The position numbers and the translations under genes are program-made. Positions 59,148 through 64,000 of a stretch of 64,000 nt of DNA are shown one piece after another. This stretch comes from Kalmusia sp. IMI 367209. Its lineage: Eukaryota > Ascomycota > Dothideomycetes > Pleosporales > Didymosphaeriaceae. The stretch spans positions 1,674,001-1,738,000 of the forward strand of contig JAPEUQ010000007.1 of NCBI GenBank assembly GCA_027946365.1, in the 5' to 3' direction. Under the pieces are notes generated by a model. It saw only the letters and a program-made list of their open reading frames with translations. It was not told the DNA's origin and made no database searches. How positions within the stretch are numbered: the first letter of the stretch is position 1; each line of letters opens with the position of its first letter.

Positions 59148-61111
59148 TCACACAATCAACGCCTCGGATCCATGTCTCCTCACGTAATCACTTTGAATGC
59201 ACCCAACTCCAACTCTTTCATACTCGTTATCCACATCGGTTAGCCTAACAACTAATATATAGTACTCCCACTTCCTAACATCGGACTCAGAAATCTGCTG
59301 CCGCCCGAGAACGACACACTCTTTGGCATCAAGGCGTGCATTCACCTCGATGTCATATTGAATCCACCCTCTTTCCGTATTGCCCGAGTCTAGTATTGCA
59401 TAGCTTGCACCCCTCTGTTCGAGACTGCAGTTTTGAAAAAAGCTGATAACGGTGACCAAAGCACACTTCCAGGTCTTTTTGAGCCACCTGTACTTGTACC
59501 GCTTATTGAATCTTAGGCTGCGCACCCAGTAAACTTCGTGGAAAGGGACATCCATGAACTGAATTTGACCGTCGTAGGCCATCCACGACCAAGATGGAAC
59601 GATCTGGGTTTTGTATTCGATTCGATCCATACTACTCTCTCCAGATTTCTGCCACAGCAGAGACCTGTGAAGACATGTTTGAAAGATACCAAACCTAGCT
59701 TCACATCTCTTGGCTCTTGCAATACGGTTCTCTAGCCCAGATATTGCAGCAAATCTATCAGTATTGTACGTCAAGCCACGTGTCGAGTACTCTGCAGAAA
59801 GAGATTGAATAGCCTTTACGGTACGCTGCTGGCCTGCCTGAAGGAGCCGGTATGGGAAGTCAGGATCGAGCATGAAGTACTTCTTTTGAAACAAGCTATG
59901 AAGCAGTACACTCGTTTTAGAAAGCTTTTTGTGTATCTGGTCATTTGATTCCATACCTTGTTAATGTGGTGAAAGATTCGCAGCAAATCCCGGTACCACA
60001 TTCAAAATAGACCTGACTTTCACTGAAGTGAATGGTTCGTCGAGACAAGACTCTTTCTTGTAATACCCATGCACGCTTGTTCAATTTTGCGTTGTCTACG
60101 TCGTTGTCGAAATCATCAACTTCAGTACTGATGTAGAATCGCCGACCTGAGGTGTCTTGTACATGGAAATACTCGCTGCTCCGTTTCCGCTTCAGAAACC
60201 CTGCTTTAGAATCGATAGCCGACGTCGCAGCGATTGTGCAGTACGCGTAGGTGAATACGTCTTCCATACGCTTGGATTCGTGTTCCCAATCTTTTTGGTT
60301 TCGCTGTATGATGCAGAGGGAATCGATCCAGAGATACCGTATGCCCAGATTCTGTGCCACCCGAACGGCATCACGAAATGTCTCTGGTAGCTCAGAAATA
60401 TCAAATCCTGTCAGGCGCGCTTCAAGGTTCTTATCAGTTGTACAGAATTGATCTTGTTCTTCCCTGGTTGGTCCGCCCCAACAATGGGAAAGTGCAGCAT
60501 ATCTCAATGTTTCGTTTTTATTGGAACAGCGGAGGCGCAGAGTATCGCGACCTAGACGCCCAACATCGAGGAGTCTGGTTGGTATTGCTGCTTTTATTTT
60601 GGGTTTGCAGTGATGGAACTCATCACACCGAAGAAGCCATGTCCGAAGTAGTCCATACTGCATTTGGCTACCAGGTTCCCCTAAACCTGGGAAGCTGACT
60701 TGTAGTTTCCCTTCAGTAACAAGTGAGGACTCTAAAAGAAAAGAGTATAGTTAGTAAGTGAGTGGCCTACCCAGTAGGGTGATTACACTGACCAGGACTA
60801 GATCCTAGCCGAAGAATGCGATGTCCACCGATTCCAATGGTCAGTCCTAGTGTATCTCGAACAATTCGTTGATCTTCTCTCTCGCCATTATGATAAGGCT
60901 GTGTGACACGAAGCAACAAAGCGCAGACCGGACAATTCAATTTAGCAGCACTGAGGTCAAAGAGATCAACGTTACAATCGACATCTACAATTGAAGCGCA
61001 TTGAACACAGCAATTGATTAATGCAGGCTCGATCAATCGACGATATGTGGATAGGCGTTTCCAGAATTCTAATGCGAGGTCGTTGTCGAAGTCGTAGCTC
61101 CAGCGATCGGC
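59148..61111 (-). CDS. HET-domain protein (5' part lies in the micro-exon array)
   Basis: Three body exons (60793-61111, 59957-60731, 59148-59910) join in phase and code 618 residues from ADRWSYDFDND to the stop. The HET domain shows YAALSHCWGG, IRYLWIDSLCIIQ and RAWVLQERVLSRRTIHFS, followed by FECGTGICCES and LTYNTDRFAAISGL, the usual C-terminal extension. Two Cys pairs (NCCVQC and NCPVC) lie before it. HET proteins trigger incompatibility-type cell death. No ATG starts the body in frame. Upstream, an acceptor at 61112 joins CTG, CAA, a 21-nt exon and a long series of 3-nt exons in the same phase, so the N-terminus must come from there or beyond 64000. Confidence 0.82.
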
Positions 61112-62342
61112 CTAGAATCGCATTGGGATGTCTTTAGAGACTGTAGCAGCCTAGCATGTTTTTTTTTGCAGGTGCACTTACCAGCTACACCACCAGCCAC
61201 AACAAGATTAGCAGTACTTCGCATTTCAATGTTCATAGATCTACTTACTTGCTACATCACCAGATATTAAAAAGATCAGCAGTAACTTCGAATACTGATA
61301 CTCACAGGTTCCTTAGCTTGCTGAATCTACAAACATAACAAGATAAGTAGGGGCTCTATATATAGAGGCTCTTAGGTCTACTTACAAGCTATACCACCAG
61401 ACACAACAAGATTAACAGGAGCTTCGTATACTACCATTTATAGGTGCTTCTTACCATCTAGAAGATTAGACACAACAAGATTAGCAGCTTCGTAACCTAT
61501 TATTTATGGATTTACTTACCTCCTATAATACCAAACATAACAAGATTAGTAAGAGCTTCGTATACCAATACTTATAGGTCTACCTACATTCTACACCACC
61601 AGATATAACAGGATCAGTAGTAGTTCCACATACTAATTATTTCTAGATCAACTTGCCATCTAGAACATCAGATATAATATGATTAATAGGAGCTTCGTAT
61701 ACTACTATTCAAAGATCGGCTCACCATCTATAGCACAAACCACGGTAAGATTAGTATGAGCTTCACATACTAATACTTATAGGTATTTACCTCCTAATTA
61801 CGAGGCACGACAAGATTAGCAGTGGTTTCGCATGCTAACGTTCGTAGGTCTATTTACAATCTACATCAGATTAATAGTAGCTTCGCATGCTAACGTTCAT
61901 AGATCGACTTACATCCTACACAAGATTAGTGGTAACTTCACATGCCAACGTTCACAGATTGACCTACCATCTAGAACACCGGACACAATAAGATTAGCAG
62001 TAGCTTCACATGCTAACGTTTATAGATCCTCTTACGTCCTACACCACCAGGCACAAGAATATTAGTAGCGGCTTCACATACTAATTTACAGCTCAGCTCA
62101 CTGTCTAGAAAACGAGAAAGAACAAGATCAGTAACAGCTTGAAATGCTAACATTCATGATTTACTTACATCCTACAAAAGATCAGTAGCAGCTTCGCATA
62201 CCAACGTTCACAGGTTGACTTACCATCTAGAACACCAGACACAATAGAATTAGTAACAGCTTCGTGTACTATCATTTATAGATCTACTGACCATCTACAG
62301 CACCAAACATAGCAATATTAGTAGGAGCTTCACATACTAATA
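61112..62342 (-). repeat. Tandem intron array with 3-nt micro-exons, part 1
   Basis: Read on the minus strand, introns lie at 61112-61181, 61185-61248, 61252-61305, 61327-61385, 61389-61454, 61458-61519, 61523-61587, 61591-61656, 61660-61724, 61728-61790, 61794-61857, 61861-61912, 61916-61967, 61971-62035, 62039-62101, 62105-62168, 62172-62223 and 62227-62291. Another intron has its acceptor at 62295. Donors are GTAAGT, GTGAGT, GTAGGT, GTAAAT and similar, with one GCAAGT. A TRCTAATCT-like branch site lies about 22-30 nt before each TAG in most units. Every gap is exactly 3 nt except exon 61306-61326 (21 nt). All but the first intron are related copies; the first is unrelated and may be the original intron. 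Confidence 0.85.
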
Positions 62343-63589
62343 AGTATATATATATATATATATTACTAAGCATTGAAAGATTGTACGTAGTTTTGAAAGA
62401 TAGTAAACTAAAAAAGATAGCAGTAGTTCCCTCCTACTTATTAATATAAAAGGCGTGTTAAAGGTGGTAATAATAAAGGTGTTACACTCCTACTAAGCTA
62501 ATTAAATTATTAAGTAAGGCTTAGCGTATGCTCTAATTAAAAAGTTATTTAACTTAAATAAAGAGAAAGGATACAGTATATATATCATCCGTTAAGGATA
62601 AACCTATTATAGTAGTAGCTATATTAAGTTATAGTCCTCCTTCGTTAATAAATTATTATAAATAGTAATCTCTCCACCTTATAATATTCTCCTTCTTCTC
62701 TACTAGGCTAGGTACGCTGTGTAAGTTGCGTGATCTTATATTAATGACTACTATTTATATATTATCTAGCTTCTACTTTATCTATGAAAAATATATATAT
62801 TAAAATTAACCTTACTATTTAACCATCTACTGCCAGTCCTACTGTCTTTTCTATAGACGATAACGTATATATTAGAGCCCTTATAGATTCTATATATATA
62901 TATATAGAGTCGGTTAGAGATAGCTATATTATATAAAAACTATAGAATTATCTATCTAGTCCGTAAAATGATCGAAAGATAGTATAAGGGAGGATAGTAA
63001 GAGACCCTATACTTAAATATAGAGTAGACGCTTAAGGTATATAAACTAGAGTAGATAGCGATAGTAAACCTAAAGAACGTAAATATAGTTACCCCTAATA
63101 GGTATATAGTGTTACTATAGGGATAGGAGCTTTAGGGTATTATACACTAGGTGAGTGCTAAAGGTGCCATTCTAGTAATAGAAAGTAATAACTAGAAGTT
63201 TATCTATAAATTATTAGGTGATAAGAGCGTTATCTAGATATATAAGATTCTCCTTAGTATAGTAAGATTAGACTAGGCGTACTACTTAAATAGCGACGGT
63301 GATAAGGCGGTGGATATCTAGATTACTATATATAGAATAAGTAAACTTTTTTTTTTTAGGCATAGAGCTTATAGTAGTTTTATATATTTTTGGGTTATAA
63401 AGGTACTTAAGTAAGTAAAGCTTAAGCTATTATAAAGTTAAATAGCTATATAGACTAGATTTAATCGCTGAGGTTAGAGCGACTATTAATAAAGTCTACG
63501 CCAACATTAAATATAAAAGGATTTAGAAGATTTTAAAAAGGTAATTAACACTGTTCCAAGGAACTAGTGCGGCGTATATATATATTTAC
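62343..63589. mobile_element. AT-rich, RIP-like insertion inside one intron unit
   Basis: A very AT/TpA-rich block of about 1.2 kb is flanked on both sides by TA dinucleotide runs (62344-62363 and 63574-63585). Array-type sequence stops at 62342 and resumes at about 63580, and the two parts together make one unit of normal length. The block therefore looks inserted into an existing copy. It has stops in every frame and resembles a transposon decayed by repeat-induced point mutation. No terminal repeats or protein family could be recognised. Confidence 0.5.
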
Positions 63590-64000
63590 CTCCTAATCAC
63601 GAGGTACAATGAAATTAGTAGTGGCTTTATATTTTAATATTTACAAATCTACTTACTTGCTATACCACCAGGTCTAATAAGAGTAGTAGTAGCATTAAGT
63701 ATTAATACTTATAAGTCTACTTACAATCTACTCCACCGGATATTAAAAGATTAGCTGCAGTTTCATATACTAATATTTGATTACTTACCATCTACACCAT
63801 TTGACACAATAAGGTTAGTAGCAATAGCACATACTAATACTTATAAGTCTGCTTACGTACTATACCACAAGACATAACAAGGTCAGTGACAGTTTTACGT
63901 ACTAATATTTATAGGTCTACTTACTGACTATACCACAAGACATAACAAGATTAGTAGCAGCTTCGTCTTCTTTATTAAGAGGTCTAATTACATCCTACAT
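63590..64000 (-). repeat. Tandem intron array with 3-nt micro-exons, part 2
   Basis: The array continues upstream with introns at 63593-63656, 63660-63724, 63728-63788, 63792-63856, 63860-63924 and 63928-63991, and a further one whose acceptor is at 63995 and which leaves the window. The micro-exons (minus strand, in gene order from the edge) are GAT, TCA, TAC, ATG, ATT, CAA and GAG. Donors and TAG acceptors are intact, although these copies are AT-richer than part 1, perhaps from spreading RIP. Confidence 0.82.

Follow-up and report, generated by a model that had tools for sequence, protein, structure and literature searches.

Very small exons are thought to impede recognition of the splice sites next to them, and in 2015 the smallest constitutive exon stood at 6 nt and the smallest alternative exon at 3 nt until an exon of 1 nt was reported (PMC4674806). 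In plants and animals, micro-exons such as those of APC11 and VPS55 (1 nt) and of Drosophila homothorax (3 bp) are, like the exons described here, below the size for exon definition; intron definition or removal in two steps has been suggested for them, and they are often missed in annotation (PMC8831610, PMC4674806, PMC7392893). As described in the available parts of these reports, they occur singly or in pairs (in one rice gene, exons of 5 and 12 nt lie next to each other), whereas the genome analyzed here has seven in series in one gene and about 31 in another. Consecutive micro-exons are also known from human RPS24, although the accounts available, both of which use the term “3-bp exon”, describe three micro-exons only, against about 31 and seven (PMC11162997, PMC12686416). 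Many tiny serial exons, mostly multiples of three and hard to annotate, are likewise a feature of the schistosome MEG genes. However, MEG exons are mostly 15 bp long (the range is 3–81 bp in the abstract, with a minimum of 6 bp in the text), MEG introns run from 100 to almost 5000 bp, and the products are secreted (PMC10526429). In the array described below, the exons are 3 bp, the introns are mostly 52–68 nt, and the product would be a HET protein.

Among fungi, functional micro-exons in filamentous species were claimed as new in 2024 (PMC11121469). The P450 genes of Phanerochaete chrysosporium likewise have micro-exons between short introns, but their shortest exon is 6 bp, compared with 3 bp in the array, and the available text mentions no long runs (PMC1184071). 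The stwintrons of ascomycetes also undergo consecutive splicing reactions at one site; in these, as far as they are described in the sources available, one intron sits inside a splice element of another (PMC12403724, PMC8469720), whereas the units of the array lie side by side, 3 nt apart. In the open-access literature, to the extent that its text was available, we found no run of one-codon exons described.

The locus belongs to cf. Kalmusia sp. IMI 367209 (Didymosphaeriaceae, Pleosporales), one of 15 endophytes covered by its genome paper. Its published assembly, made with Raven from 208x short-read and 27x long-read coverage, comprises 30 contigs and 42.78 Mb with an N50 of 2,200,773, and the gene count came from Funannotate (PMC10027605). 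We refer to the whole stretch of DNA that was analyzed, 64,000 nt at C28:1674001-1738000, as the window, and positions without a contig name are counted from its start.

The array and the HET-domain exons beside it

The tandem array of intron units and one-codon exons lies on the minus strand. It fills 61112..64000 of the window and extends 514 nt past the window end, to 64514 (C28:1738514). From 64514 to 61112, it comprises 33 intron units with 31 gaps of exactly one codon; read as a chain, this gives 32 introns, or 33 if a double unit of 134 nt is counted as two. A typical unit, at 63928..63991 (minus strand, 64 nt), reads GTAATT...CTAAT...TAG and is followed by the exon TCA. Much of the original prediction holds up. 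Within 61112-64000 (minus strand), there are 24 junctions of the form TAG-NNN-donor with a spacing of exactly 3 nt, and one donor, at 61656, is GC. In the array as a whole, a YTRAY branch-like site is present in 25 of the 27 complete units, in line with the claim that most units have one. The GC donor (GCAAGT) belongs to unit 25 (61591..61656, minus strand) and is the sole one among the complete units. Unit lengths, given as 52 and 61–66 nt, need widening to 52 or 61–68 nt for complete units. The statement that every unit ends in TAG is true of the 24 junctions in the window but fails beyond it, where the unit at 64459-64407 ends in AAG.

The run had also been described as uninterrupted and its splice signals as usable throughout. 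The first description is incorrect, as unit 14 (62295..63589, minus strand) holds an inserted AT-rich dispersed repeat of 1.2 kb at 62370..63573; these boundaries were set by the commonest extent of the matches (query 1-1204) and are approximate. Owing to this insert, unit 14 measures 1295 nt, which is long for a fungal intron, and it has kept its GTAAAT donor and TAG acceptor. The second description applies to the core signals, which are held, but the donor behind the acceptor at 61329-61327 has been lost, leaving the double unit of 134 nt at 61252..61385 (minus strand) without its middle donor. The next donor after the lost one is GTGAGT at 61305, and the double unit can also be read as two introns (61385-61327 and 61305-61252) flanking an in-frame exon of 21 nt that encodes IQQAKEP. 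In unit 1, the acceptor is weak and a clear branch site is lacking. With a lost donor, a weak unit, and an inserted repeat, the run is imperfect. The inserted repeat is found elsewhere in the genome: at least 47 matches, with its own copy among them, were counted from the 40 of 145 candidates that were scored, and 42 of the 46 other matches are 81–89% identical to it, several of them near contig ends. Its copies have probably been mutated by repeat-induced point mutation (RIP).

The exons on either side of the array can be joined through it in one frame. Upstream, beyond the window end, an exon of 36 nt opens with ATG (exon 1; 64550-64515, minus strand; MSRKAWNDSHFE). The one-codon exons that follow are, from 1 to 16, AAG GAA ATG GAT ATG TTC TAT GAT TCA TAC ATG ATT CAA GAG ATG ATG and, from 17 to 31, GAT ACA GAC ATG GAT ATT GAG ATG ATG AAT GAG ATG CTT CAA CTG. 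Phase 0 is kept from exon 1 via all 31 of these codons, with no stop, into the HET exon, although the absence of stops in 31 codons has a probability of 0.30 from composition. The last intron of the array (61112..61181, minus strand, 70 nt) has the acceptor TTCTAG and leads in phase 0 onto the HET exon. The joints of the array are all phase 0, and the two later introns of the gene are in phases 1 and 2, as judged by exon lengths. The three exons after the array, at 60793..61111, 59957..60731, and 59148..59895 (all minus strand), the last of which ends in a stop, have an intact frame of 613 codons. Residues 184-332 of this 613-aa product are a HET domain (PF06985; E 5.3e-32, 111.6 bits, cut-off 22.5).

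The first of these three exons lacks Met, and its reading frame opens immediately after the last acceptor of the array. As this exon is conserved, a start upstream of or inside the array must be spliced in. A transcript that starts at 61111, which had been named as a case that would leave a minisatellite with splice-like motifs, is unlikely for the same reason. Homologues point in the same direction: P0002 is 45% identical to the HET gene over query residues 12-185, and P0005 (Lepidopterella) aligns gaplessly across the border between exon 1 and the HET exon (MGAEKWKDSSFQ/YDGWEHTFDN vs. MSRKAWNDSHFE/ADRWSYDFDN), with no residues between the two parts. The N-terminus of P0015 is MDQETWKDSLFW, and the motif W-x-D-S-x-F is common to P0015, P0005, and the HET gene of the array. 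The array and the HET exon appear to form a single spliced gene.

A PNP_UDP_1 domain (E 3.8e-6) is encoded by a divergent neighbor on the plus strand (C28:1739942-1741042; L006:6943-8043). Beside it lies an open frame with TPR repeats (L006:8611-9999, plus strand), which is open at the locus end. PNP_UDP_1 domains occur in fungal NLR-like genes, and the HET gene with these neighbors looks like a recognition-type neighborhood.

Spacing and conservation of the splice signals

Junctions with the 3-nt spacing are far more numerous in the array than expected by chance. We counted 30 junctions of the form [CT]AG-NNN-donor in the array, taken as 2200 nt with its extension past the window end and minus the inserted repeat; the 37 matches on both strands of the other 61 kb of the window would predict 0.67. 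Each of the other spacings (0, 1, 2, and 4–12 nt) occurs at zero to three junctions in the array, and the opposite strand of the array has no [CT]AG-NNN-donor junction. Chains of two or more such junctions are absent from either strand of the other 61 kb. A scan that took in 43 of 58 loci and the remaining 61 kb found chains of three or more in the array and at one place on contig C5; 15 loci were left out as overlapping, and the array also appears via the overlapping locus L049. There are 38 acceptor–donor pairs at 0–12 nt in the array, of which 30 are at 3 nt and none at 0, an arrangement that is neither the architecture of stwintrons nor that of zero-length recursive splice sites.

To describe the conservation of individual columns, we used the 27 complete units among the 32 of the chain, leaving out units 0, 1, 14, 29, and 31. 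These units have a mean identity of 69% (range 58–85%), and similarity is slightly higher between adjacent units (0.718) than between distant units at a lag of 11 (0.671). In the columns of the core splice signals (GT, the T and A of the branch site, and AG), 160 of 162 cells (98.8%) show the consensus, the exceptions being one GC donor and one branch A. Other intron columns show it in 998 of 1321 cells (75.5%). The columns of the one-codon exons are among the most variable, with the consensus in 37 of 81 cells. Among 200000 base-matched sets of six columns, none was as conserved as the core, and for the GT and AG columns alone 33 of 200000 sets reached the conservation observed. The commonest change was G to A (87), so RIP or deamination could favor some columns; however, donor and acceptor G were unchanged in 54 of 54 cells, and other G preceded by A in 63 of 80 (p 9e-5). 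As the unit boundaries had been found by means of splice motifs, all 33 periodic units were also counted, and acceptor AG is present in 33 of 33 and donor GT or GC in 32 of 33.

In a neutral minisatellite, columns would be expected to drift alike, and in the array units they do not; an old, useless repeat should not show such a pattern of conservation. The units have the appearance of spliceosomal introns, each under constraint of its own, with single codons as exons. The exactness of the 3-nt spacing gives no significant signal of its own with respect to indels, as none were seen in 81 exon cells and about 0.8 would be expected from the intron indels. A structured RNA repeat is not indicated either, with no predicted base pairs and no Rfam match at E 0.1 in 61000-64000.

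One-codon exons and array-like units elsewhere

The place on contig C5 is a kinase-HET gene. Between its kinase and HET parts lies a chain of eight introns of 46–159 nt (C5:617404-616827, 578 nt), and the seven consecutive one-codon exons, GCA GAT TAT AGC CTG CCG CCA, spell ADYSLPP. Seven such junctions compare with 0.18 expected (P 1e-9), and a CTRAY site is present in six of the eight introns. This reading is in frame with the exons on both sides, the last acceptor having been chosen to fit the HET frame, a choice that leaves the seven codons unaffected. We recorded the chain before the homologue search, and the heptapeptide reading was part of that search's query, where it made up 7 of the 471 scored residues and may slightly favor such matches. 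With P0121, the public model of the C5 gene, left out, 12 of 116 homologues have exactly ADYSLPP at the corresponding place with a W within seven residues, and 36 of 116 have at least six of seven matches to it and then W; 20 random heptapeptides gave no homologue each. Among named homologues, the exact peptide is mostly from Pleosporales, and most of the Xylaria proteins shown have ADYTLPP. Judged by homology to this conserved heptapeptide, the tiny exons of the C5 gene are coding. P0121, which contains both the kinase and HET domains, jumps from LLGRNHR to LVGWEF without the seven codons and is probably wrong in doing so, because the skipped codons spell a conserved peptide.

The introns of the C5 chain look unrelated to the array unit and to each other, as far as the z test sees. 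The seven introns compared (intron 5 was left out for its length) were considered as decayed copies of one another and rejected, with a mean pairwise z of 0.17 and a best value of 2.05 among 21 pairs. They were also rejected as decayed array units, with a best z of 2.7 against six units, where array units reach 6–11 among themselves. Intron 5 (L043, C5:617161-617003) is 159 nt long, has an AACAG/TGAGT overlap near its start, and is perhaps two fused introns.

This linker was also read in other paralogues. There are two apparent 9-nt exons (AACGAATAC and AGATTTACT) in the kinase-HET paralogue on C30 (L044, C30:744500-750500), and apparent exons of 3 nt (GAT) and 15 nt (GAATATAGATACACG) in the kinase-HET paralogue on C29 (L045, C29:496000-502000), while the linker of the C1 paralogue seems to have one intron only. 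All of these are putatively phase 0 and lie just before a D-x-W motif. Two intron boundaries seem common to C5 and C30 and one also to C29, which hints that they are old introns. In some homologues on metagenome contigs, such as P0122 from a 61-kb contig, the peptide lies within one predicted protein; provided that introns are not modeled by the gene callers used, these genes are intron-free at this place.

A first pattern search, for pairs of adjacent introns enclosing a single codon, returned ten matches (three in the reversed control): the array accounts for five, C5 for one, next to a HET paralogue, and other places for four. Four patterns together gave 21 matches, nine in the array or C5 and 12 elsewhere, with 3, 2, 2, and 1 in the reversed controls. 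Two of the 12 matches elsewhere have open frames on both sides and a second intron, and none has a CTRAY branch site. The flank test also fails on the four C5 junctions, since it is blind to exons inside a chain, and is uninformative on further chains.

The array unit itself appears to be confined to its locus in this genome. A search with the unit gave five DNA matches, all in the array (two first-look candidates), and a profile of the unit matched none of 19 other loci. Outside the genome, we found one protein that seems to contain it. In P0012, a HET protein model from Phaeosphaeriaceae sp. PMI808, the HET-type region is preceded by about 275 residues that are rich in repeats such as CEAAANASVLGGVAV and GKLTCEYWDARLLLML. 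The protein matched the unit translations with E 1.3e-7 for the N-terminus and 2.8e-7 for the whole length, the latter when 237 proteins were compared and no reversed control did better than 0.001; motif counts gave 13 unit ends and three unit starts. The model seems to read the array unit as coding, which would be the opposite of the error in P0121. The N-termini of P0002 and P0015 are similar to that of P0012, but against the unit (E 0.004 and 0.005) they do no better than the reversed control at 0.001. P0223 and P0232 (E 0.010 and 0.015) look like noise. P0062 and P0079 were rejected as carriers of the unit, neither of them reaching E 0.05 among the 237 proteins. A search for further proteins with the P0012 repeat returned P0012 alone.

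Proposed splicing and growth of the array

We consider it probable, taking the reading as a whole, that the array forms the 5' portion of a HET-domain gene, which by its domain is of the heterokaryon-incompatibility type, and that an ATG exon, 33 short spliceosomal introns with 31 single-codon gaps, and the HET exons are spliced one by one. The repeating unit would be one intron plus one codon, and each tandem duplication would add a removable intron and one residue with the frame kept. Since such a unit is frame-neutral, the run could grow without breaking the gene. Tandem intron duplication within a gene is a plausible route for this growth, which we infer for the array and which may have been neutral for the most part, in a linker tolerant of additional residues. 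Intron definition is the presumed mode of recognition for fungal introns, and those of the array would be removed singly in this manner. With an acceptor and the next donor 3 nt apart, neighboring introns could hardly both hold spliceosomes, so removal would probably be sequential. Loss of one intron would join its codon to the preceding exon, and the next donor would thereby gain a normal exon context. The messenger would be assembled codon by codon, by serial removal of introns in some order, and the 31 array codons would enter the main mRNA.

Alternatively, the array, with the inserted repeat, may be removed as one block from donor 64514 to acceptor 61112, the one-codon exons being skipped or rare. 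We regard this as unlikely. It would suit P0005, with no residues between its two parts, and the public model P0121, which skips all seven one-codon exons of the C5 gene, and the 1.2-kb insert makes stepwise removal harder. However, two splice sites would be enough for block removal, yet constraint persists on the donors, branch sites, and acceptors inside the array. The C5 model is a poor guide here, as the codons that it skips spell a conserved peptide, so that it is probably wrong at this point, and it probably rests on no transcripts, given that the available main text of the genome paper has no word beginning with “RNA” (PMC10027605).

It is also improbable that the array is an intron-derived minisatellite in a gene that is dead or dying, with signals left from a founding unit and of no present use. 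This reading would fit the genuine tandem repetition of the units, the insert in unit 14, and the donor missing from the double unit. In such a repeat, though, signals and bodies should decay alike, and the observed values of 98.8% and 75.5% differ; furthermore, the HET frame is intact over three exons and 613 codons. The hallmark of introners is the presence of near-identical copies in many unrelated genes. The original prediction had brought up elements of this type, and introner-like elements are known in Dothideomycetes (PMC4457414, as far as its text was available). Repeated insertion of such introns at one place is, nevertheless, very improbable: similar copies in unrelated genes were found neither by the DNA search nor by the profile search of 20 loci, and, as far as these searches reach, the unit is present at the array locus alone, with all five genome matches in the array and none of the 19 other loci matching the profile.

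If splicing one by one is the correct reading, the run of about 31 one-codon exons and the conserved C5 peptide, cut at each of its codon boundaries, would show that a spacing of 3 nt between splice sites can recur many times within a single gene, and the array would provide a natural substrate for studying the order of splicing and an extreme test of minimum exon size. It also suggests a frame-neutral route for the multiplication of introns. The C5 gene, whose model P0121 is without seven codons, shows that gene models can lose one-codon exons. Genes of self/non-self recognition evolve fast, and our analysis places the phenomenon in genes of this type. It may be conjectured that variation of the linker, or a slow chain of splicing reactions, is useful to a possible cell-death trigger. 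More broadly, and tentatively, as a possibility to which we give somewhat less than even weight, a stretch of protein may be built up codon by codon, nearly every one of the 33 intron removals adding a residue, with frame-neutral growth and shrinkage that would give linkers of hypervariable length immediately upstream of the HET domain, or with the long splicing chain serving as a brake on a protein able to kill the cell. This architecture may have arisen or persisted in at least two HET genes of this fungus, and the unit may be present in another family of Pleosporales.
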